This document shows positions 3,224 through 50,010 of a DNA stretch of 64,000 nt, one piece after another. Source of the DNA: an uncultured Spirochaetaceae bacterium (GTDB taxonomy: Bacteria > Spirochaetota > Spirochaetia > Sphaerochaetales > Sphaerochaetaceae); contig CALXQU010000012.1 in NCBI GenBank assembly GCA_944390725.1, forward strand, positions 1 through 64,000, in the 5' to 3' direction. Each line of letters begins with the position of its first letter. Position 1 is the stretch's first letter. The notes beneath the pieces were generated by a model. That model was given only the letters and a program-made list of their open reading frames with translations. It searched no databases and was not told where the DNA came from. A program made the position numbers and the translations under genes.

Positions 3224-4029
3224 GGACAAACCTTCCTTTCTATAAAGCTTGTAAGGAAACTCAGGAAAGCCCCTGCCAAGCCGATTGAAACCATTCCTGC
3301 CATAACAAGAGAGATATCGAATACTTCCATTCCCCGATAAACAAGGAATCCCAATCCTGACTTCGCCGCAAGCATTTCCGATGCCAGGACAACCATCCAT
3401 GCAACGCTTGTAGCATTGCGGATTCCTGCGAAGATACTTGGCAAAGCAGCTGGCAAGACAATCTTCATCAGCAATTGCTTCTCGGTAGAAGCGTTGAACA
3501 TCTTTCCGACATCGAGGTACAGGGCAGGAACGAACTTTATGCCTGTATAGGAATTAACGACTATAGGCGTAAGGGCTCCGATGAAAATCATTATCACCTT
3601 TGCCTTCTCGCCAATGCCGAACCACATTATGATCAATGGTATCCAGGCTAGTACCGGGATAGGCCTTATACACTCGAATAAAGCCCCGATAGTGGCACGG
3701 ACAGAACCATTCCAGCCAATCATTACGCCAAGCGGTATCCCGATAAGTATCGCGAATCCAAGACCGCATATGACACGAAGCATGCTCATACCTGCATGCT
3801 GGAGAAGAGTTGCTTTTGCCACTGGATTGAAAAGCATATCTATCATCTTGCGTAAAACAATCAGAGGATTGGGAAAGATCCTGTTGTTATCGCCTGCAGC
3901 AGCAAACCATATGAATACCAGGAGGAAGAGCGACACGAAAGGAGCTATCCTGAAAACGAATGCATAAATGGAACTGTTCTTGCTTGCAGGGTCTTTTCCC
4001 GATTCTACATGATTCTCTACTCTGCTCAT
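3196..4029 (-). CDS. ABC transporter permease, SsuC/TauC-like
   Basis: A 277-residue inner-membrane permease of the binding-protein-dependent family, with an N-terminal helix (about 26-45) and a core of about five further helices. The cytoplasmic EAA-like loop is ALPSIFAGIRNATSVAW, which docks to the ATPase. Start ATG at 4029 overlaps the stop of the upstream permease gene by four bases. Together with the second permease it probably forms a heterodimeric channel matching the heterodimeric ATPases, whereas classic Ssu and Tau systems use homodimers. Substrate is inferred only from the linked sulfatase. Confidence 0.92.
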   Translation of the reverse strand: MSRVENHVESGKDPASKNSSIYAFVFRIAPFVSLFLLVFIWFAAAGDNNRIFPNPLIVLRKMIDMLFNPVAKATLLQHAGMSMLRVICGLGFAILIGIPLGVMIGWNGSVRATIGALFECIRPIPVLAWIPLIIMWFGIGEKAKVIMIFIGALTPIVVNSYTGIKFVPALYLDVGKMFNASTEKQLLMKIVLPAALPSIFAGIRNATSVAWMVVLASEMLAAKSGLGFLVYRGMEVFDISLVMAGMVSIGLAGAFLSFLTSFIERKVCPWNTGIKSE

Positions 4030-4802
4030 ACGCTGCCTCCTTTGTTCACAAAGGCTTCGATGATGTTGAAGATAAAATTAAAAAGGAAACCAAGCAGGCC
4101 TATTACAACCATTCCCAGGACAACGATGTCAGCCCGTCCAAATTGCCTGGCCATGCTGATCATATACCCAAGGCCAGAAGATGCCGCCAGCATCTCCGCA
4201 GCTACAAGAGTTCCCCACGAAGTGGACAAGGCAATCTTCAATCCAGCGAAAATCATCGGTACAGCAGAAGGAATCCCAACATGTATGAATGTATAGAAAT
4301 TCGATGCCCCATAGGTTTTCGCAACATTTATAAGCGCAGGATTCGTCTGGCGGATACCTGTATATGCATTGATGACGCAGGAAACAAAGGCTGCGAAGAA
4401 TATTATCAGTGCTTTTGCTGTAATTCCGACCCCAACCCATACAATCATCAGGGGGATCCATGCGACAGCTGGTATGGGCCTGATGATTTCAAAAATCGGA
4501 TTGATGAATCTGGAAAACAGCTTATACCAGCCCATAAGCAGACCTAATGGAATCCCAACTACTACTGCAATCACGAACCCCACGAAAGATGTATAAAGAC
4601 TTGAAAGGATATTCGTAATAAGCAATGACCCGTCAGGCCCGATGTTATCAAGCTTAAAGAAGAAGGCCTGCAGGACCTCATATGGTGTAGGTGTATAATT
4701 ACCAAGTAAGCCAAGCGATCCTGCAATCTGCCAGACTATCAGGAAAATTATGAATGTTGCTGATGTCAGAAGAGCATAACGATGCTGTTTCCTAGATGCC
4801 AC
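4026..4802 (-). CDS. ABC transporter permease, SsuC/TauC-like
   Basis: A 258-residue permease closely related in layout to its neighbour at 3196-4029: a first helix at about 11-33 and a core with the EAA-like loop GIPSAVPMIFAGLKIALS. The start ATG at 4802 has GAAGGAG upstream and lies 62 bases after the binding-protein gene, separated from it by a 9-bp hairpin at 4817-4837. It overlaps the next permease by four bases. The two permeases probably arose by duplication and form a heterodimeric membrane channel. Confidence 0.92.
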   Translation of the reverse strand: MASRKQHRYALLTSATFIIFLIVWQIAGSLGLLGNYTPTPYEVLQAFFFKLDNIGPDGSLLITNILSSLYTSFVGFVIAVVVGIPLGLLMGWYKLFSRFINPIFEIIRPIPAVAWIPLMIVWVGVGITAKALIIFFAAFVSCVINAYTGIRQTNPALINVAKTYGASNFYTFIHVGIPSAVPMIFAGLKIALSTSWGTLVAAEMLAASSGLGYMISMARQFGRADIVVLGMVVIGLLGFLFNFIFNIIEAFVNKGGSV

Positions 4803-4816
4803 GATGCTTCTCCTTC

Positions 4817-4837
4817 GGCGGGATTGCGAATCCCGCC
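4817..4837 (-). terminator. Hairpin between binding-protein and permease genes (partial terminator or RNA stabiliser)
   Basis: A perfect 9-bp stem (GGCGGGATT / AATCCCGCC) with a 3-base loop, between the binding-protein stop and the ribosome site of the first permease. There is no clear U-tract on the transcribed strand, so full termination is unlikely. I infer it protects the binding-protein mRNA or attenuates downstream expression. Confidence 0.6.
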
Positions 4838-4864
4838 TTGAAAATCCTTACGGAACCCAGCCTC

Positions 4865-6043
4865 TTACTGGTTTCCCATTACCGTATCGATTCCTTCCAT
4901 AGTGAAGATTCTGCTGTCATTCTCAATCATCGTTTCGTGATCCTGGGCAGTATAGTTTCCCTGGGAAACGTAGAAGTCCATTATGCCCTGCAGCCTCGCC
5001 ATAGCTTCACTCATCTCACCATTGGCAGTCGATATCTGAGTCGTGAACATCTCATAGTTTTCATCGATGGTATAGTATTTTGTCTCGGAAAGGTATGCGA
5101 ACATCTCATCAACAGAGGTAACCGCGCCCTCATCCTCACACCATTTTGCGATAATCTCTGCAGCAAACTGCATATTGTCCTCGCTTTCATGCATCCACTG
5201 TTCAGCGGCAAAATGGTATTCAAGTATCTTCATAATCGCTGCATTCTTATCAGCATCTGAAAGGACCTTATCATTGGTCATGAATGCAGTTACAAGGTTT
5301 ATCCCGGCAGGGCCTCCCTCGATTACGGCTTTATACCCCTCCTCTTCCAATGCAGCTGAATAGCAAAGGAAGTTCCAGATTCCCCAGACCTCTCCCTGAT
5401 TTGCATACATAGCAGTATTTACATTGTTGGCATCCATATAGATTGTCTCAACATCCTGCAATGTGAGGCCCAGCTTATCGAGAGCGAAACCAAGGAGATA
5501 CTGAAGCGTAGTACCTGCTGGCAGATAGACTTCTACACCTCTCCAATCATCAGCAGTTCCATAGAATCCTGTTTCTTCATTGAAAGATGTTGATGCAAGA
5601 GGATTCGTATCCTTTACGAAGAACTTCTGCACAACAGAATCATCATTGATATAGCAGAGGACTTTTGAAGTACCCTGGACAGCGCCTACGGCAACACCAG
5701 CTATGCCTGTTCCTACAAGATCGACTTCACCTGCATTCAATGCTTCAATCGATAGCGGACCGGTAGAGGCCGGAATGAAATCAAGGGTGATTCCTGCATC
5801 CTCAAGGCAGCCAGATTCATAGGCTATCCAAAGAGGACTTGACAACTGCAGTCCAACCGTCGCGATGTAACGTACGGTTGCGGGATTCTCCAATGGCTCA
5901 ATATCTGCATACGAATCAAGCAGGCTCTGGAAACGAGGATCCTCCCGAAGAGCATTCTGTGTGCTCTCTGCACTTCCGCCTGCAAATACAAACGAAACCG
6001 AAAGCATAACGCATAGCAATGCAATGAAAACTCTACGTACCAT
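4865..6043 (-). CDS. ABC transporter substrate-binding protein, NMT1/SsuA-like
   Basis: A 392-residue periplasmic binding protein that begins the importer operon. The signal peptide covers about residues 1-21, and the mature protein begins near AGGSAEST. There is no lipobox Cys, so it is either soluble or tethered in another way. The fold resembles SsuA/TauA/NMT1 proteins: an early strand ATVRYIATVG, then LNAGEVDLVGTG. Start ATG at 6043 has GGAGG upstream. Four further helper genes follow (two permeases, two ATPases), then sulfatase and dehydrogenase. The divergent LysR gene at 6186 is the likely regulator. Ligand is inferred to be a sulfonate or sulfate ester, not shown. Confidence 0.9.
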   Translation of the reverse strand: MVRRVFIALLCVMLSVSFVFAGGSAESTQNALREDPRFQSLLDSYADIEPLENPATVRYIATVGLQLSSPLWIAYESGCLEDAGITLDFIPASTGPLSIEALNAGEVDLVGTGIAGVAVGAVQGTSKVLCYINDDSVVQKFFVKDTNPLASTSFNEETGFYGTADDWRGVEVYLPAGTTLQYLLGFALDKLGLTLQDVETIYMDANNVNTAMYANQGEVWGIWNFLCYSAALEEEGYKAVIEGGPAGINLVTAFMTNDKVLSDADKNAAIMKILEYHFAAEQWMHESEDNMQFAAEIIAKWCEDEGAVTSVDEMFAYLSETKYYTIDENYEMFTTQISTANGEMSEAMARLQGIMDFYVSQGNYTAQDHETMIENDSRIFTMEGIDTVMGNQ

Positions 6044-41772: not shown

Positions 41773-43101
41773 TCACACCCTCTTGTAGTTCTTCATCGCA
41801 TCATGGATGAACGTGGCAAGCTGGTCGGCGCTGACCCTGACCTGCTCCATGGAATCGCGGAAGCGGACGGTGACGGTATGGTCCTCAAGCGTCTGGTAAT
41901 CGACAGTCACGCAGTACGGCGTACCGATCTCATCCATCCTCCTGTACCTCCTGCCCACGGCGCCGGACTGGTCGTAGAAGGTGAAGAAATCAGAGCGAAG
42001 GCCATGCTCGAGCTTCGAGGCATACTCTGCCAGCCCATCCTTCTTCACGAGAGGAAGGACCGCGACCTTGACAGGCGCGATGGCCGGATGGAAGTGGAGG
42101 ACCGTCCTCGTATCGCCTTCCGGAGTCGCCTCCTCGTCATATGCATCGCAGAGCGCCATCAGGACGTTCCTCGTCAGGCCTGCCGATGTCTCGACGACAT
42201 ACGGCACATACCTCTCCTGCGTCTCCGGGTCGAGGTACGTGAGGTCCTTGCCGGAGAACTTCTGGTGCTGCGTGAGGTCATAGTCGGTCCTGGAATGGAC
42301 GCCCTCGAGCTCCTGCCAGCCCATCGGGAAGAGGAACTGGATGTCGTATGCATCCTTGGCATAGAACGCCAGCTCATCCGGTCCGTGCTGATGCCACCTG
42401 AGGCTTTCGGGATGGATGCCCATCTTCTTGTAGAACTCCATCCTCTGCTCCCTCCAGTACGGGAACCATTCCTCATCGGTGCCAGGCTTGCAGAAGAACT
42501 GCATCTCCATCTGCTCGAACTCGCAGGAGCGGAAGATGAAGTTCTTCGTCGTGATCTCGTTCCTGAACGACTTGCCTACCTGGGCTATGCCGAAGGGGAG
42601 CTTCACCCTCGACGACTGGAGGACGTTCTTGAAGTTGACGTAGATACCCTGCGCTGTCTCAGGCCTCAGGTAGACTACCGATGCCTCATCGGCATTGGCG
42701 CCGATATGCGTCTGGAACATCAGGTTGAAATTGCGGGGAGCGGTGAACGTACCCTTGTTGCCGCAAACCGGGCAGGCACCCTCAAGGTCGATCTGGTCAG
42801 CGCGGAAGCGTGACTTGCAGACCTTGCAGTCCACCATCGGGTCGGTGAAGTTGGAGACATGGCCTGAAGCCTCCCAGACCCTCGGATGCATGAGGATGGA
42901 GGCATCGAGCCCCACGATGTTGTCATGCATCTGGATCATCTCCTTCCACCAGAAGTCCCTGATATTGTTCTTGAGCTCCACACCCATCGGACCGTAGTCA
43001 TAGGCTCCGTTCAGTCCGCCATAGATCTCGCTGGACTGGAAGATGAAGCCGCGGCGGCGGCAGAGCGATACGATCTTATCCATTGTTGCTGCTTGTGACA
43101 T
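41773..43101 (-). CDS. glyQS: Glycyl-tRNA synthetase (single-chain, dimeric type)
   Basis: A 442-residue class II synthetase of the alpha2 type found in eukaryotes, archaea and some bacteria including spirochaetes. Motifs visible: YDYGPMGVELKNNI near residue 30, the zinc-like CKVCKSRFRADQ and CPVCGNKG, motif 2 RNEITTKNFIFRSCEFEQMEMQ region (in part), and LTRNVLMALCDAYDEE near the C-terminal core. The start ATG at 43101 abuts the gltX stop. The anticodon-binding domain closes the protein. Confidence 0.95.
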   Translation of the reverse strand: MSQAATMDKIVSLCRRRGFIFQSSEIYGGLNGAYDYGPMGVELKNNIRDFWWKEMIQMHDNIVGLDASILMHPRVWEASGHVSNFTDPMVDCKVCKSRFRADQIDLEGACPVCGNKGTFTAPRNFNLMFQTHIGANADEASVVYLRPETAQGIYVNFKNVLQSSRVKLPFGIAQVGKSFRNEITTKNFIFRSCEFEQMEMQFFCKPGTDEEWFPYWREQRMEFYKKMGIHPESLRWHQHGPDELAFYAKDAYDIQFLFPMGWQELEGVHSRTDYDLTQHQKFSGKDLTYLDPETQERYVPYVVETSAGLTRNVLMALCDAYDEEATPEGDTRTVLHFHPAIAPVKVAVLPLVKKDGLAEYASKLEHGLRSDFFTFYDQSGAVGRRYRRMDEIGTPYCVTVDYQTLEDHTVTVRFRDSMEQVRVSADQLATFIHDAMKNYKRV

Positions 43102-44583
43102 TTACTGTTTCTCCTCGAGTATTGAAAGGCCGCGGCGGAGACGCCTCTCCGTCTCGTCGAGCCCAAGTAATCCGATTGAATCGAAAAGCGGAAGCGATAC
43201 GGCGGAATTGGTTATCGCGACCCTTATCGGCTGGAAGACGCCATTGACCTTGATGCCGAGCTCGCCTGCCAGCGCCGCAAGGTCCTCCTCTATCGCCGCC
43301 TGCTCCCTGCCTGACCTGAGGCCGGCAAGCAGTATCTCGCTGCCGCGGGAGAGAGCCTCCACGGTCTTCTCCTCATCAGAGCCCTTGGCCACGTATACGG
43401 ACCTGTCCATCACAGGCTCGTCCCTGAAGATGAAGGCTGAAAGCGGCACCGCATCGGAGAGCACCTTCATCCTCTCCTTCACAGGCGGGACAAGGCGGGC
43501 GATGAGCGCCTTCTCGTCCTCCGTGGCCGGATCATGGATGAATCCCGCTTCCTGCAGATAAGGCGTCACCAGGTCAGCTATGCGCTCATCGGAAGCCGCG
43601 CGGATATACTGGCCATTGAACCAGTCAAGCTTCTTGTAGTCGAACACGGCCGGGGACTTGTGTATGCCGGAGAGCGTGAAGCACTTCTCCAGCTCCTCGC
43701 GGGTGAAGAACTCGGTCGAGCCGTCAAGTGACCAGCCTACGAGCGTCACGTAGTTGATGATCGCCTCGGGAAGGTAGCCCTTGGCACGGAAGTCGCGCAC
43801 GGCGGTGGAGCCATGGCGCTTCGAGAGCTTCTGGCCGTCCTTGCCCATCACCATCGGCAGATGGCAGTACTGCGGGACATCCCAGCCGAAGGCCTGGTAC
43901 AGGAGGACATGGAGCGGTCCGGACGGGATCCACTCCTGGGCCCTCATTATATGGGTGATGCCCATCAGGTGGTCATCGATGACATTGGCAAGATGGTACG
44001 TGGGGAACCCATCGCTCTTGAGGATGATGGGGTCCGGGGAGATATCGCGGTTGCGGCGCGTGATATCTCCCATGAGGATATCATGGAAGGTCGTCTTCCC
44101 CTCGGTCGGGACGCGGAAGCGGATGACGGGCTTTATCCCCTGCCTCTCATACTCCGCCCTCTCCTCATCGGTGAGATGGGCGCAGTGCCTGTCGTATCCC
44201 TGGTACTCGCTCTTGCTCTCGGCCTGCTGCTTCCTGACCTCCTCAAGGCGCTCGGCGGAGCAGTAGCAGTAATATGCCTTGCCTTCCCTTACGAGCTGCT
44301 CTGCATACTCCCTGTAGAGATCGAACCTCTCCGACTGGATATACGGGCCGCAGGGGCCTCCCACGACGGGACCCTCGTCCCATCTGATGCCGAGCCAGTC
44401 AAGCGTCGAATAGAGGTCCTCAAGCGATTCGTCTGAGTACCTTTCCCTATCGGTATCCTCCACGCGGAGGATGAAACTGCCTCCCTGGGAGCGTGCGAAG
44501 AAGTAGTTGTAGAGCGCAGTGCGGATCCCTCCGATATGCTGCAGCCCTGTCGGTGATGGGGCATAGCGAACACGAACGTCCAT
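43102..44583 (-). CDS. gltX: Glutamyl-tRNA synthetase
   Basis: A 493-residue class I synthetase beginning at the ATG at 44583 (MDVRVRYAPSPTG) with AGGAGA upstream; an extension to 44700 has no family similarity. HIGH-type motif TGLQHIGGIR (about 12-21) and KMSKS-type motif KLSKRHGS are intact. In many bacteria it charges both tRNA-Glu and, for later amidation, tRNA-Gln; no evidence here either way. It follows the alpha/beta hydrolase gene by 52 bases. Confidence 0.96.
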   Translation of the reverse strand: MDVRVRYAPSPTGLQHIGGIRTALYNYFFARSQGGSFILRVEDTDRERYSDESLEDLYSTLDWLGIRWDEGPVVGGPCGPYIQSERFDLYREYAEQLVREGKAYYCYCSAERLEEVRKQQAESKSEYQGYDRHCAHLTDEERAEYERQGIKPVIRFRVPTEGKTTFHDILMGDITRRNRDISPDPIILKSDGFPTYHLANVIDDHLMGITHIMRAQEWIPSGPLHVLLYQAFGWDVPQYCHLPMVMGKDGQKLSKRHGSTAVRDFRAKGYLPEAIINYVTLVGWSLDGSTEFFTREELEKCFTLSGIHKSPAVFDYKKLDWFNGQYIRAASDERIADLVTPYLQEAGFIHDPATEDEKALIARLVPPVKERMKVLSDAVPLSAFIFRDEPVMDRSVYVAKGSDEEKTVEALSRGSEILLAGLRSGREQAAIEEDLAALAGELGIKVNGVFQPIRVAITNSAVSLPLFDSIGLLGLDETERRLRRGLSILEEKQ

Positions 44584-44635: not shown

Positions 44636-45490
44636 CTAAGGACCGAAGAAGGAGACCACCGCCGATACGGCTTCCTCCTCTGCCTCCTTGTCCTTGTCAT
44701 AGAGCATGTAATGGGTCGCTCCGGCTACCGGCACAAGCCGTTTCCTGCAGGGTATGGCGGCATAGAGCGCATCGGTCCATCCCGCCGGGATGATGGCATC
44801 CTTCCCTGCCGTCACCAGCAGCGCATCGCCCGTGAGCCCTGCTGCCGCATCCATGGCGGAGCGCGAGAGCCTGAAGAGGTCCCTGAGCTGGCGGAAGTAT
44901 ATCCACGACCAGTACTCAGCGCCGAGATGCATGTCATCGGCAGGGGCGTCCTCATAGTACATCGAATAGCCGGGGTCGTTATTCCACGGAACAGGCTTCC
45001 TGCGGGAGAAGATGCCGGCAAGCGTGAGCCTGGCTATCGGGAGGCGGGCATCATGCGGCGCGGCGGCAGGTGCGAGCAGCGCGGTCTTCCCCAGCCCCTC
45101 CCTGGCGGAGGCGATGATGGCAAGGGCCCCTCCCATCGAATGGCCGGCGATGAAGACCTCGTCGTATCTTGTCCTGAGGTCACGGACGGCATTGAGCACC
45201 AGGCCAAGCCAGTCATCCATCCCCGTCCTGGCGAAATCCGCGCCCGATGTGCCATGTCCCGGCAGGCGCGGCGCATAGACATCATAGCCCAGCGCATAGA
45301 GCTCGCGTGCAGGCCTTACGACCTCGCCCGGATAGCCCGTGTAGCCATGGACGACGAGGATGCAGCGCCTAGGGCGGAGGGAATGCGCAAGCGTGAATGG
45401 CCGCCCGGCCTTGCAGGGCTCCGACTTGTCATGGTAGAGCCCGCCATACCAGCACTGCGGCACGGAGTATCTGAAGGGAACATCGTTCAC
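44636..45490 (-). CDS. Alpha/beta hydrolase (carboxylesterase-like)
   Basis: A 284-residue serine hydrolase. The oxyanion region is CILVVHGYTGYPGE (43-56), the nucleophile elbow is GHSMGG with Ser118, the acid Asp is in TAGKDAIIPAGW and the His in AGATHYMLYDKDKE. The layout resembles monoacylglycerol lipase/Est30-type carboxylesterases. The GTG start at 45490 overlaps the LuxR stop by four bases, so it is translationally coupled to the RloA-RloB-LuxR operon. A role in the defence-like operon is not established; it might also be an ordinary lipid esterase. Confidence 0.88.
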   Translation of the reverse strand: MNDVPFRYSVPQCWYGGLYHDKSEPCKAGRPFTLAHSLRPRRCILVVHGYTGYPGEVVRPARELYALGYDVYAPRLPGHGTSGADFARTGMDDWLGLVLNAVRDLRTRYDEVFIAGHSMGGALAIIASAREGLGKTALLAPAAAPHDARLPIARLTLAGIFSRRKPVPWNNDPGYSMYYEDAPADDMHLGAEYWSWIYFRQLRDLFRLSRSAMDAAAGLTGDALLVTAGKDAIIPAGWTDALYAAIPCRKRLVPVAGATHYMLYDKDKEAEEEAVSAVVSFFGP

Positions 45491-46383
45491 CAGGAGGCCT
45501 CCTGCAGGAGATTGAGCAGGTCTATCCTGCTACGCACCTCGGTCTTGCCGAAGATGTTCGCTATATGGTTGTTGACGGTATTGACCGATATGCTGAGCTC
45601 GTATGCGATCTCCTTGTTGGTGCAGCCCTTCTTTATCAGGCAGATCACCTCAAGCTCCCTGTCCGTGATATGGTACCGCTCCTGGATGATCTCAGAGGAA
45701 AGGGGCTCCTTCCTGGCATCGGCGGAAGCACTTTCCTGATGCGCCGTGGCGATGAAGAGGAAGACGAGTATGGCAATCGAGTATGCCATGGCGACGACTG
45801 CGATCACGGCATCGCGGAGCCAGGCATAGATGCAGGTCAGTATCAGCAGGGGCATCAGCGAGAGGGAGATGATTGCCAGCGTGCGGCACATCAGCTGCAC
45901 GGACTTGTCCGCGACATTGCGCGAGAACGCCAGCGCGATGACTATGCAGTAGGCGGCCACGGCAGCCCAGATCAGGTACTGCAGGAGCGAAAGGACCTGC
46001 AGGCCGAAGACCGTGTATGAGACGGAGACTGCCAGGTAGATGCACGCGACAGCCGTCGAGAGCACCTTCTCCGCAGGATGCATGGGACGGGCGACGATCC
46101 AGCAGGCGAAGAACGGCAGCATCGCCAGGATGAACGTGCTGTCGGCGACAAGGAGCGATTCCCAGATGTACAGCAGGATCTCGCGCGCCTGGCCCGAGAA
46201 TGCATATGAGGAGTACTGGGCAAGCACGAACGCCACGACGGCGCCCATCAGCGATGCAGTAAAAACTATGCAGGTGCGCGACCAGCTGTATCGCGCCCTG
46301 CGGTTCCAGATTATCGAGAGCGCAAGGTCCATGCTCACAATGGCAAGGGCCCCTAGGCTCAGGAGAAGAGGGACTGCCTCCAT
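45487..46383 (-). CDS. Seven-helix membrane protein with C-terminal LuxR helix-turn-helix
   Basis: A 298-residue protein with about seven hydrophobic segments (roughly 4-24, 40-60, 72-94, 106-126, 134-155, 165-186, 192-213) followed by a LuxR/GerE DNA-binding domain (about 233-295; TDRELEVICLIKKGCTNKEI, then SISVNTVNNHIANIFGK). This membrane-tethered LuxR design appears in various gut bacteria, where signals are largely unknown. Its ATG abuts the RloB stop. I infer it senses an envelope or small-molecule signal and regulates genes by contact with nearby DNA. Confidence 0.88.
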   Translation of the reverse strand: MEAVPLLLSLGALAIVSMDLALSIIWNRRARYSWSRTCIVFTASLMGAVVAFVLAQYSSYAFSGQAREILLYIWESLLVADSTFILAMLPFFACWIVARPMHPAEKVLSTAVACIYLAVSVSYTVFGLQVLSLLQYLIWAAVAAYCIVIALAFSRNVADKSVQLMCRTLAIISLSLMPLLILTCIYAWLRDAVIAVVAMAYSIAILVFLFIATAHQESASADARKEPLSSEIIQERYHITDRELEVICLIKKGCTNKEIAYELSISVNTVNNHIANIFGKTEVRSRIDLLNLLQEASW

Positions 46384-47013
46384 CTACCTTCTTACCCTCT
46401 GGTTATGCGACATGTCCGCGGTTCCGCAGATTGCCGTCACATCCTCCAGCAGAAGGGAGATGCGGCTTGCGTCGATGCCTGTCGCCTGCCTTGCGACGGC
46501 ATTGTAGTTCCTGGCATTGATGTCCGCTGCCGCGCGCCTCGGGAAGAGGCGGATATCGACATTGAGGCCCTTTGTCAGGAAGTACTCAGGCGTCAGGGCA
46601 AACCCGGGGAACGATTCCCTGAGCTTGTTCATATACGGCGAGAGATCGGCCGTGAACGAAGAGGGAGCTGCGAGATGGAGCGCAAACCAAAGCTCGAATG
46701 AGGGGTTGAACCAGCAGAGCTTCACCTTCTTTCGCTCCGCATACTCCTCCATCTCCTTCAGCACGCCGGCATCCGCCGATACATCATCGAATCCGAATAG
46801 CGCCCAGGCCGAATCGAAGCGGCCATGGGACCTTTCCCTGCCGGTGAAGTCAATCATCGACTTCAGGTCCTTCTTCGGGGATGTGAGCACTGTCAGGTTC
46901 ACATACCTGCAGTCCTTCCTCATCTGCGAGAAGTACAGGGTCTCCGCCTCCGTGGCGCAGACGATGAGCATCGTCTGCTTGGGATCTGTTATGTTCTTCC
47001 TGCGCTTGATCAT
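46384..47013 (-). CDS. RloB-like protein (AbiLii-type)
   Basis: A 209-residue protein matching the RloB family, whose known members pair with an AAA ATPase. Family landmarks are present with substitutions: CATEAETLYF (19-28) for the usual C-E-G-E-K-T-E-x-x-Y-F, FGFDD (73-77) for an aspartate motif such as F-D-R-D-D, and NPSFELWFALHL (103-114) intact. The fold is probably Toprim-like and may be a nuclease. Its ATG overlaps the RloA stop by four bases (ATGA). Together they resemble AbiLi/AbiLii of lactococcal abortive infection; function here is inferred. Confidence 0.82.
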   Translation of the reverse strand: MIKRRKNITDPKQTMLIVCATEAETLYFSQMRKDCRYVNLTVLTSPKKDLKSMIDFTGRERSHGRFDSAWALFGFDDVSADAGVLKEMEEYAERKKVKLCWFNPSFELWFALHLAAPSSFTADLSPYMNKLRESFPGFALTPEYFLTKGLNVDIRLFPRRAAADINARNYNAVARQATGIDASRISLLLEDVTAICGTADMSHNQRVRR

Positions 47014-48290
47014 TCGGATACCTCCTGCTCATTGGTAGGCGCCTGGGCAGGCGTCCCATCGTGTACGAAGTAGAATTCGCTCAGGATCGGCAGCGAACCG
47101 AATGCACCCTGCATGTATCTCTGCGAAGTCGGGATCCTCGAGCGGGCTCCCTTGAAGTCGGACAGGGAGAAGTACTCGGTGGAGCTTTCGGAATCCTTCT
47201 GCGCGAACCAGATGGCATCGCGCCTCAGGAGGCCATCGCGCAGAAGCGACGGGTTGCAGTCCACGACGAGCATCTGGCTCTCCTTGTCGCAGTTCTCGAA
47301 GATCTCCACGATATGGCAGAGCACATCGGGATGGAGAAGCTGCCCGAAGTCATCGATGACCAGCGTCTTCTGGGTGATGAACGCCTCGAAGAACGCGAAG
47401 CCGATGGCGGTAAGCCTCCTCAGCGAGAGGCTCTCGCCCTGGAACATGTTGGCATATCCCTCCGCCTTCTTGTCATTGACGTAGATGTGCGTATACCTCA
47501 GGTGGTCCTCGCCATGGTCGTTCGTCTTCACCTCTATCCTGCTGATATCCGTGATATCCAGGGCCCAGAGGTAGTTCACGAACTGCTCGCCCCAGCCCGG
47601 ATGCGCCTTCAGCATCTCGCAGACATAGGCCTCCGCCTTGCTGCTGACGCCCATCGGCAGGATGTTGAGGCGGTTCTCAAACCAGCCATAGAGCTCACTG
47701 GATGTCTGGCCGCCCTTCCTGGCGGACCCTGCGAGGAACGTCCTGTTCTCTGGGAGCTTGGCAGCCTGCCTCTTCTTCTCGCCCCTGTAGAGCTTGCCGA
47801 AGCGGTATGCATACGCGCCGTCATCGCCGAGAATCCTCTCGAACATCAGCTTCTTCGAGGAGCCGAGGATGTAGTAGAGGCTCTCCTCGAAGATCCTCTC
47901 CTTATTGGCGCGGAGCGTGTACCTGGCGATGACCGATGGATGCTCGTCGGTGCCATCGCCCTTGTCGAGCAGCACCTCGATCTGTATCGTAGCGGGCGTG
48001 GCCTTGTCGATGCCGTATGCGAATGTCGTTCCGGTCAATGCGCTCTGGAGCGGGTTCTCGGGGCCATCAGGGGCCATCACGATCCTCTTGAGCACCTCGA
48101 GGGCGCGCACGAATGAGCTCTTGCCTGCCCCATTCGGGCCTATGATGGCGCTCGTCTTGATGACCTTGAGCTTATCGTTCACCGCCACGACCTTCGACTC
48201 AGGAAGGCGCGAATCGCGCACAGCCTGGAAGCTTATCGTCTGTGGGGACTTTACGGACTTGAAGTTCGCAATAGTCATGTTCAGCAGCAT
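47010..48290 (-). CDS. RloA/AbiLi-like AAA ATPase
   Basis: A 426-residue ABC/SMC-type AAA ATPase starting at the ATG at 48290 with GGAGG upstream. Walker A is GPNGAGKSS at 51-59. Walker B reads LVIDDFGQLLHP (310-321), with Asp where the family normally has a catalytic Glu (DE). The switch region, usually TTHNxxLL, reads VVDCNPSLL (342-350). The downstream LRRDAIWFAQKDSE and SLSDFKGAR patterns are typical of RloA-type proteins. First gene of the four-gene operon; its promoter is recognisable at 48340-48368. Confidence 0.87.
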   Translation of the reverse strand: MLLNMTIANFKSVKSPQTISFQAVRDSRLPESKVVAVNDKLKVIKTSAIIGPNGAGKSSFVRALEVLKRIVMAPDGPENPLQSALTGTTFAYGIDKATPATIQIEVLLDKGDGTDEHPSVIARYTLRANKERIFEESLYYILGSSKKLMFERILGDDGAYAYRFGKLYRGEKKRQAAKLPENRTFLAGSARKGGQTSSELYGWFENRLNILPMGVSSKAEAYVCEMLKAHPGWGEQFVNYLWALDITDISRIEVKTNDHGEDHLRYTHIYVNDKKAEGYANMFQGESLSLRRLTAIGFAFFEAFITQKTLVIDDFGQLLHPDVLCHIVEIFENCDKESQMLVVDCNPSLLRDGLLRRDAIWFAQKDSESSTEYFSLSDFKGARSRIPTSQRYMQGAFGSLPILSEFYFVHDGTPAQAPTNEQEVSE

Positions 48291-48339
48291 CTGCCACCTC
48301 CTTAAGCACGGGCCGCTGCCCCTGCATATACTGTTCCCG

Positions 48340-48368
48340 ATTATAGCAAGCAGCAGCCCAAACTGCAA
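48340..48368 (-). promoter_or_regulatory. Promoter of the RloA-RloB-LuxR-hydrolase operon
   Basis: The minus strand has TTGCAG (48368-48363), a 17-base spacer and a perfect TATAAT (48345-48340) with the extended TG element (TGCTATAAT). Transcription should start near 48333, giving a 40-odd-base leader with the strong GGAGGTGG ribosome site. Confidence 0.78.
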
Positions 48369-48424
48369 AAATTATCCGCAGAAGCGCAGGACGGGGCAAT
48401 CAATAGCCTGAGAATAGACTTAGA

Positions 48425-48496
48425 ATATCCCAAAAACGATGGAATAATTAAATAAAACCTGCATTTTGAATGCTTCTACCATCGCTTCTGGGATAT
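48425..48496. repeat. Nested AT-rich inverted repeat (possible structured RNA or terminator)
   Basis: Outer arms ATATCCCA (48425-48432) and TGGGATAT (48489-48496), inner arms CGATGG (48437-48442) and CCATCG (48479-48484), separated by 4-base bulges on each side. Inside the 36-base loop lies another hairpin, GCATT-TTG-AATGC (48461-48473). The flanking sequence is much more AT-rich than the genes. It lies 23 bases beyond the stop of the 123-residue gene, so it might terminate that transcript, or encode a small RNA for the neighbouring operon. Confidence 0.6.
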
Positions 48497-48519
48497 CAAA
48501 TGAAATAATTTTTCAAAAA

Positions 48520-48891
48520 CTAGTTTATATTCATCAATATATTCGTCAATTCGAACGGGGTCTCGACCTCCCTGTACGGCCCGGCGGCCTTATCAGGGTC
48601 CTTCGTGCCCGTGATGACGACCACGGGCATGCCGGGCTCCGAGAGGTGGTCGGAGAGCCATGCAAGCCCCGATGGCTTGATATCCTGCATCACATCGGTG
48701 AAGCCGGAAAGCACTATCACGCTGAATGCCGACGAGCTGATGAACCTCTTCAGCACCTCCATGCCGTTGTTCGGCGATGAAGCGGCCTGCATCCTGCCGG
48801 CCTTCACCGCGGACCTGCCGGAGAACGCTATGCATGCGCTCTTCCTGGACGAAAGGTCCGGTACCATCATCTCATCCCTTACGAACAGCAT
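48520..48891 (-). CDS. Hypothetical protein, 123 residues
   Basis: A 123-residue open frame four bases after the lipoprotein gene on the same strand, so probably co-transcribed with it. It looks like a compact alpha/beta protein with a repeated hydrophobic-strand pattern (ACIAFSGRSAV, SVIVLSGFTDVM, MPVVVITGTKDPDKA). There is no signal peptide, membrane helix or recognised motif. The start ATG at 48891 lacks a strong ribosome site but may be coupled to the upstream stop. Real but unrecognised. Confidence 0.65.
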   Translation of the reverse strand: MLFVRDEMMVPDLSSRKSACIAFSGRSAVKAGRMQAASSPNNGMEVLKRFISSSAFSVIVLSGFTDVMQDIKPSGLAWLSDHLSEPGMPVVVITGTKDPDKAAGPYREVETPFELTNILMNIN

Positions 48892-48894
48892 AGG

Positions 48895-50010
48895 CTACCT
48901 CACCAGATACTCGTAGATGGAGTCATCCCTCCACTCTTCCGGTATGACGATGGACTGGGCAGCGGCAGCCATCTGGGCCTGGGCCTGCTTATCCTGCTGC
49001 GAGACCGCGGTCAGGTCGGAGATGACGCGCGGGATATCGCCGGACGGGGAGATGGCCTGGACCTTCCTGAGGATATCGATAGCCTCATCGTACCTGCCCT
49101 GCGCCGCGATCATCAGCGCCGCGTTGTAGCCTGACGGGGCATGGCTGTATGTATTCCAGCATGAGGTGAAGATGGAAAGCGCCGTCTGGAAATCGCCATT
49201 GGACGCGGCATCATATGCCGGCGCGGCGGCATCGAGGGAGGGATTGTTGTCCATCAGCGAGACGCTGTAGTACGCCGTCGTCGGGATGAAGAGGCGCACG
49301 ACACCCTGCTGGAAGTCCCTGATCATGCGGCGGAAGTAGTACTCGGAATCATTGAAGGACGGCCAGTCTGGATCGAACGTCTCGGTGAAGCTGGTCGAAT
49401 CGGAGAAGGTCTTCGTCGTGACGATCCTCTCCGTAGCCGTATCCACCACGGTGACCGTGTATGTGATCGAGATCCTCCTCCTGAGATGGTACTCGTATTC
49501 GTAGTCATCGATGTAGCCGCCGAAATAGGGATCGTAGTACGTGACCGGATTGACGGTCGTATAGATGCTCTCATCGACATTCATCGCATCGATCCTCGGG
49601 ATCATGATGGCATCATAGCCCATCCTCCTCAGCTCCCTGGATACATTGACAGGGGCATAGAGGATAGCATCGGTCTGCGATGGCGAGAGCAGGTTATAGT
49701 AGCCAGACGAGCTGAGCGTGGACCACAGCTGCTCGGTTGCATACGATGCGACAGCCGCGACGGTATTGGAGCCCCATGTGGGATGGATCATGACGCCGAA
49801 GCCTGCGGCATCCACCGGTATCCAGCCGCCGGCAAGCCCCGGCCCGATATAGCCGCGGTAAGGAACCGTCGAGGCCACCGCGAGATTGCGGTAGCGCCCC
49901 ATGTTGACCTCTGAAGGCCTGGTGTATGGAATCGAGACCTGCGTCGCGCAGGAAGCAAGCAGAAGCACGGCTATCAGGAGCAGTGCGGCCCTGGCTGTAA
50001 TTCTCTTCAT
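48895..50010 (-). CDS. Outer-membrane-type lipoprotein with C-terminal TPR-like helices
   Basis: A 371-residue lipoprotein with a lipobox L-A-S-C ending at Cys21, so it should be lipidated after signal peptidase II cleavage. Residues about 25-110 contain strands and a TolB/CsgG-like N-terminal pattern (PYRGYIGPGLAGGWIPVD). The middle is rich in Tyr and Asp (PYFGGYIDDYEYEYHL). Residues 270-345 form two or three TPR-like helical pairs (FQTALSIFTSCWNTY, GRYDEAIDILRKV). Exact function unknown; such proteins often help envelope assembly. Start ATG at 50010. Confidence 0.83.
   Translation of the reverse strand: MKRITARAALLLIAVLLLASCATQVSIPYTRPSEVNMGRYRNLAVASTVPYRGYIGPGLAGGWIPVDAAGFGVMIHPTWGSNTVAAVASYATEQLWSTLSSSGYYNLLSPSQTDAILYAPVNVSRELRRMGYDAIMIPRIDAMNVDESIYTTVNPVTYYDPYFGGYIDDYEYEYHLRRRISITYTVTVVDTATERIVTTKTFSDSTSFTETFDPDWPSFNDSEYYFRRMIRDFQQGVVRLFIPTTAYYSVSLMDNNPSLDAAAPAYDAASNGDFQTALSIFTSCWNTYSHAPSGYNAALMIAAQGRYDEAIDILRKVQAISPSGDIPRVISDLTAVSQQDKQAQAQMAAAAQSIVIPEEWRDDSIYEYLVR

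Follow-up and report, generated by a model that had tools for sequence, protein, structure and literature searches.

The window analysed here, 64,000 nucleotides of a contig from an uncultured Spirochaetaceae bacterium (CALXQU010000012.1), carries four adjacent genes whose first two products recall the abortive-infection pair AbiLi/AbiLii and whose last two are a membrane LuxR-type protein and a hydrolase. Is this a phage-defence module with built-in sensing or a domesticated variant of one, the two options left by a reading of the sequence alone, and do the four genes make up a single system?

A coupled operon with an AbiL-type pair

The four genes form an operon on the minus strand (48290-44636), with all of its members coupled. 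The features of the locus, in the direction of transcription, are as follows.

48895..50010, minus strand: TPR/CsgG-like lipoprotein gene, constant upstream neighbour (synteny)
48340..48369, minus strand: promoter, sigma-70-type, TTTGCA-18-TATAAT (consensus scan; TATAATC conserved in an alignment of 23 relatives)
47010..48290, minus strand: core RloA, AbiLi-like ABC/AAA ATPase, 426 aa (PADLOC AbiLi, Pfam AAA_21; motif residues invariant in 82 orthologues)
46384..47013, minus strand: core RloB, TOPRIM-type, 209 aa (Pfam RloB, PADLOC AbiLii, AlphaFold2, structural comparison, residue counts)
45487..46383, minus strand: seven-transmembrane LuxR-type regulator with GerE HTH, 298 aa (Pfam GerE; AlphaFold2)
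44636..45490, minus strand: alpha/beta hydrolase, monoacylglycerol lipase / Est30-like (Pfam Hydrolase_4; PDB profile search; triad conserved)
41773..44583, minus strand: gltX and glyS, aminoacyl-tRNA synthetases, constant downstream neighbours (synteny in genus and family)

The rloA stop and the rloB ATG overlap by 4 bases (47010-47013), luxR starts one base beyond the rloB stop (46384/46383, overlap 0), and the luxR stop overlaps the GTG of the hydrolase gene by 4 bases (45487-45490). Four tightly coupled genes behind one promoter (48369-48340), as the sequence-only reading had described them, are therefore present. That reading was right about the RloA-like ATPase gene and wrong about its start, which it had put at 48368: the start codon is ATG 48290, with the Shine-Dalgarno sequence AAGGAGG. 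TTG 48368 was ruled out as a start because the promoter and the Shine-Dalgarno sequence sit downstream of it; the promoter falls within the longer frame, and its TATAATC is near-invariant in the 23 relatives.

The assignment of the first two proteins to the AbiLi/AbiLii families is supported. RloA matches the PADLOC AbiLi model with E 1.7e-60 and Pfam AAA_21, and RloB matches Pfam RloB (E 7.9e-14; 52.7 bits, cut-off 31.5) and PADLOC AbiLii (E 5e-11), with no other PADLOC match and none to AriB. The AlphaFold2 model of RloB (pLDDT 90.9) alternates strands and helices in the order of a TOPRIM domain. In structural comparison OLD nucleases top its list with Z 7.9 and 7.5, values below the level that would be decisive alone; a Foldseek search with the model returned nothing below E 0.001, and a PDB sequence search with the RloB profile gave no match. 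The NetFlax authors likewise relate RloB to OLD_TOPRIM and show an RloB-AAA pair as toxin and neutraliser (PMC10440598).

The LuxR protein matches Pfam GerE (E 2.5e-15), and its AlphaFold2 model (pLDDT 83.6) has seven long helices and the HTH domain, which bears out its earlier description as a seven-helix protein; its likeness to GPCR-type seven-helix bundles is one of general shape only. The hydrolase matches Pfam Hydrolase_4 (E 4e-21), and its best match in a PDB profile search is a thermostable monoacylglycerol lipase (E 2.6e-26), its nearest kin being monoacylglycerol lipases and Est30 carboxylesterases. The triad Ser118-Asp231-His260 is kept in 67-68 of 69 copies, the remainder being gaps.

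Several elements were noted upstream of rloA. The palindrome TACTTAAxAATRTTAAGTA was considered as a LuxR operator and rejected, as it encodes the C-terminal end of the upstream gene's product (..NYLxNIK stop). This 123-aa gene (48520-48891) has no Pfam match, is fast evolving, has a C-terminus NYLxNIK that is conserved in relatives, and occupies the place of cobO/cpsB in other genera; it could represent a degenerate remnant or a novel gene. An inverted repeat at 48424-48498, with arms of about 20 bases, is predicted to form a hairpin of -29.7 kcal/mol (z -4.9; z -5.7 in the sister genome L050). It does not stand out across the genus and gave no consensus fold and no Rfam match; wider conservation is seen for two blocks, GATATCC and ATTCCATC.

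Replaced catalytic residues in the core pair

To describe the pair at this locus, hereafter the core pair, we compared its orthologues with 34 ordinary copies, drawn from 31 further RloB loci of the phylum and five accessory pairs of Sphaerochaetaceae, minus L277 (a core copy) and L265 (a duplicate). In core RloB the TOPRIM Glu (EGxTE) is absent from 83/83 sequences (Ala in 69, Ser in 9, others) and the first Asp of DxD from 80/83, whereas the ordinary copies carry this Glu in 97% and the Asp in 100%. Core RloA keeps the Walker A motif (GPNGAGKSS in the window) in 83/83, with Lys and Ser retained; its Walker B reads DD instead of DE (82/82), its switch DCNP (82/82; VVDCNP in the window) instead of TTH/TSH, and its ABC signature ESLS[LM] (ESLSL in the window) where ordinary copies have ESxGT. 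All ordinary RloA copies have DE, the signature Gly and a switch His or Gln. The Walker B DD, the VVDCNPSLL switch and the altered RloB acid motifs picked out beforehand in the window are thus (near-)invariant in 82-83 orthologues, and for that reason reflect neither chance nor sequencing error.

We conclude from these alignments that RloB has had its predicted TOPRIM nuclease residues replaced family-wide, and RloA its catalytic Glu, signature and H-switch, with Walker A kept. The defining residues of nuclease action and of normal ATP hydrolysis are, by the same comparison, lost from the core pair.

Instead of being a pure scaffold, RloB could nevertheless still be, or have again become, an enzyme whose chemistry has changed. 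Acidic residues persist near the lost site (Glu24 in 74/83, Asp76 in 55/83) and could in principle rebuild a metal site; core RloB has also gained invariant residues (Lys33, Asp34, Arg36, Gly197 and Asp200). The remaining acids, however, are not invariant, so that no complete metal site is common to the family, and Gly21, Ser102 and Glu107 of ordinary RloB are lost as well. We regard such an activity as unlikely.

The genome of the window also holds, outside the window, an ordinary RloAB pair (locus L081, G000:C14:36188-38001) with TOPRIM acids, DE and TSH motifs intact, a candidate for a conventional AbiL-like system beside the core pair. Such co-residence, seen in some other genomes too, would suit a decoy or immunity function, in which the silent pair binds without cutting and so neutralises ordinary RloAB systems or phage anti-defence proteins; catalytic death with a preserved fold is the picture expected of a decoy. 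Yet core and ordinary RloA share only about 24-28% identity, which makes mixed complexes unlikely, the core copy occurs regardless of whether the genome yields an ordinary pair, and the strong purifying selection described below is not the pattern of an arms race. A decoy is therefore quite improbable.

Vertical inheritance and the unit of conservation

Every one of the 48 genomes of the genus has an orthologous RloA, with 52-94% identity. In Sphaerochaetaceae, a family of round bacteria akin to spirochaetes, it was found in 125 of the 139 genomes at E <= 1e-40, many of them metagenome bins with contig ends. At 1e-20 the count is 126, the extra genome (G120) having an ordinary pair only; the order-level search gave the same 139 genomes as the family. 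A phylum sample of 393 genomes yielded RloA matches in 35, including the window's own, all of them Sphaerochaetaceae, and none at E <= 1e-32 in the approximately 357 other genomes of the sample. Beyond the phylum the search was one pattern scan of named genomes, and its best 80 loci carried only Spirochaetales or Sphaerochaetaceae-type labels; among them were Candidatus Ornithospirochaeta, Bullifex porci, Pleomorphochaeta and Sphaerochaeta, including Sphaerochaeta halotolerans. These labels place the window in Sphaerochaetaceae, close to Ornithospirochaeta. The plasmids and phages searched contained no core RloA, only relatives of 22-34% identity, and none was found in IMG/VR viral contigs. 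With this near-universal presence in genus and family, and its absence from the mobile elements searched, the core pair does not show the sporadic, mobile distribution typical of AbiL.

All core RloA sequences group in a single clade, and so do all core RloB sequences; both clades have support 1.0 and sit on long stems (branch lengths 1.25 for RloA and 1.10 for RloB). The RloA tree shares 27 of its 34 well-supported splits with a GltX+GlyS tree, and the patristic correlation is 0.83. Across the family the gene order is pdxA-lipoprotein-(cobO-cpsB)-rloA-rloB-luxR-hyd-gltX-glyS in one chromosomal place. The core pair is thereby shown to be inherited mainly vertically, in a single syntenic place.

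Pairwise dN/dS ranges from 0.007 to 0.032 for rloA and from 0.006 to 0.063 for rloB; in the same genomes glyS gives 0.012-0.031 and gltX 0.026-0.073. Individual values are rough, as most pairs have a high dS; L034/L075, a pair whose dS is about 0.2-0.3, gives ratios in line with them (0.010 for rloA, 0.006 for rloB). Purifying selection on RloA is as strict as on aminoacyl-tRNA synthetases, and pseudogene decay is excluded by these ratios. As the catalytic residues have been replaced while conservation of the sequence matches the strictness seen in housekeeping genes, the pair has probably been turned to a cellular job.

These results bear on whether the locus is a working AbiL-like abortive-infection system, in which RloA would sense phage and free RloB, RloB would kill by cutting nucleic acid, and the LuxR protein and hydrolase would add sensing. 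The PADLOC annotation as AbiLi/AbiLii and the neutralisation of ordinary RloB toxins by their AAA partner (PMC10440598) favour it. Against it, the TOPRIM Glu and Asp are replaced in essentially all copies, and the related AriB, the PARIS effector and an active tRNA nuclease, loses its activity through the Toprim mutation E26A (PMC12409363); moreover, the pair is core and vertical with housekeeping dN/dS, and not mobile in the plasmids, phages and viral contigs searched. We consider this system very improbable. Of the two options left by the sequence-only reading, the defence module with built-in sensing is accordingly set aside for a vertically inherited core operon that has its nuclease and ATPase residues replaced throughout and is absent from the mobile elements searched, and the domesticated variant is favoured by the same findings.

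Whether the four genes belong together is a separate matter. Within the genus the order lipoprotein-rloA-rloB-luxR-hydrolase-gltX-glyS is constant, with gene distances of -14 to +3, -1 to +3 and -7 to -1 bases (the last with three exceptions; one frameshifted and some truncated copies set aside). Most other genera have CobO adenosyltransferase and CpsB/CapC phosphatase genes between the lipoprotein gene and rloA. Our survey covered 96 loci that carry one or more of the four genes; all four are present in 67, although 15 of the 96 had entered the survey on account of a missing or cut rloA. The co-occurrence of the four in synteny is thus real. The idea of an obligate four-gene unit fares worse. 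rloA and rloB occur together at every locus except where contig ends cut them, and the pair is hence the unit, LuxR and hydrolase being frequent but separable companions. In small genomes (genera g3, g4, g8, g14 and g18) rloAB is missing and LuxR is still there, mostly beside gltX; the pair is therefore dispensable. Genus g22 (1.2-2 Mb) has rloA-rloB immediately in front of gltX, LuxR and hydrolase both being absent; g21 is missing the hydrolase, and two loci of g12 have no LuxR. The TPR/CsgG-like lipoprotein gene stays as an operon neighbour in the family even where rloAB is lost. More distant LuxR relatives elsewhere in the phylum adjoin unrelated genes. By the test proposed with the sequence-only reading, an obligate four-part system fails, and we conclude that the four genes are a conserved operon.

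They might even do nothing in common and merely lie side by side in a long housekeeping operon. LuxR-gltX without rloAB, rloAB-gltX without LuxR and hydrolase, the losses in g21 and g12 and the unrelated surroundings of distant LuxR homologues all point that way, while two observations argue for a common function: about 45 genomes of the genus retain the close translational coupling, and at least 67 loci have all four genes together. We hold mere adjacency to be a serious possibility, somewhat short of even odds. Operon structure is the one line that would link LuxR and hydrolase to rloAB, each of the two having been lost independently.

Two arrangements elsewhere in the family are worth recording. 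At L103, L104 and L105, loci of the reduced genus g22, rloB and gltX touch or overlap, which couples rloAB to the glutamyl-tRNA synthetase gene. In Sphaerochaeta, a paralogue of the 7-TM LuxR gene at locus L233 likewise has an alpha/beta hydrolase gene behind it (5018-5968 and 3831-4907), hinting that LuxR and hydrolase may be a recurring pair.

Possible function and relation to known systems

Our preferred explanation, to which we give a probability of roughly 0.7, is that an AbiL-type RloA/RloB pair has been domesticated in Sphaerochaetaceae as a non-cleaving, ATP-binding complex. The pair would have been captured on the chromosome of a Sphaerochaetaceae ancestor and then domesticated. RloA may still bind ATP, switching slowly or locked in the bound state, and would assemble and hold RloB. 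RloB, its cutting lost, may present a nucleic-acid- or protein-binding surface through its newly conserved blocks RKDCRY and CGxADMSHNQ, and the complex could act as a nucleotide- or tRNA-responsive scaffold or sensor. More tentatively, its output might in most members be tied to the co-transcribed membrane LuxR regulator, which might in turn sense an envelope or lipid ligand made or removed by the lipase-like hydrolase. The fuller proposal is speculative, and we lean against it: a phage-defence ATPase/nuclease pair would have been exapted family-wide to serve as an ATP-gated signalling complex that does not cleave and that cooperates with a seven-helix membrane transcription factor and a lipase-like enzyme. 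If true, it would be a new kind of housekeeping regulatory system made from an abortive-infection module.

Among known systems the closest is AbiL (AbiLi/AbiLii; RloA/RloB), a Lactococcus plasmid abortive-infection system that likewise couples an AAA/ABC ATPase gene to an OLD-type TOPRIM RloB gene. The core pair differs from it in being chromosomal, family-wide and vertical, in having the TOPRIM acids, Walker B Glu, ABC signature and switch His replaced, and in sitting in an operon with LuxR, hydrolase and gltX-glyS. The NetFlax D29 AAA : D44 TOPRIM_OLD (RloB) toxin-antitoxin pairs (PMC10440598) unite the same two protein families in a two-gene system, but RloB there is a toxin neutralised by the AAA protein, whereas core RloB is without catalytic residues. 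PARIS (AriA/AriB) also has an ABC ATPase and a TOPRIM effector in separate genes, and its AriA model matches RloA weakly (E 1.7e-11); the core pair, in contrast, has no AriB match, and the catalytic acids are missing from its RloB. Nucleases of the OLD family (P2 Old, GajA of Gabija) combine ABC ATPase and TOPRIM domains, the latter resembled by the RloB model, but the domains are fused in OLD and separate in the core pair, and the OLD active site is intact.

A literature search found no publication on RloA/RloB in Sphaerochaetaceae. The core pair is a clear case of a defence module made a core gene with both catalytic centres altered, and it poses a tractable question, what a catalytically silent AbiL does, in a family some of whose members can be cultured. 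Where a genome holds an ordinary pair as well, the two offer a ready comparison for studying effector taming.

The PADLOC AbiLii model still matched 15 of 19 catalytically degenerate core RloB proteins (46384-47013 and 18 relatives). Automatic annotation would, on this count, probably report AbiL in nearly all Sphaerochaetaceae, and defence-finding tools would thus count a family-wide housekeeping pair as AbiL.
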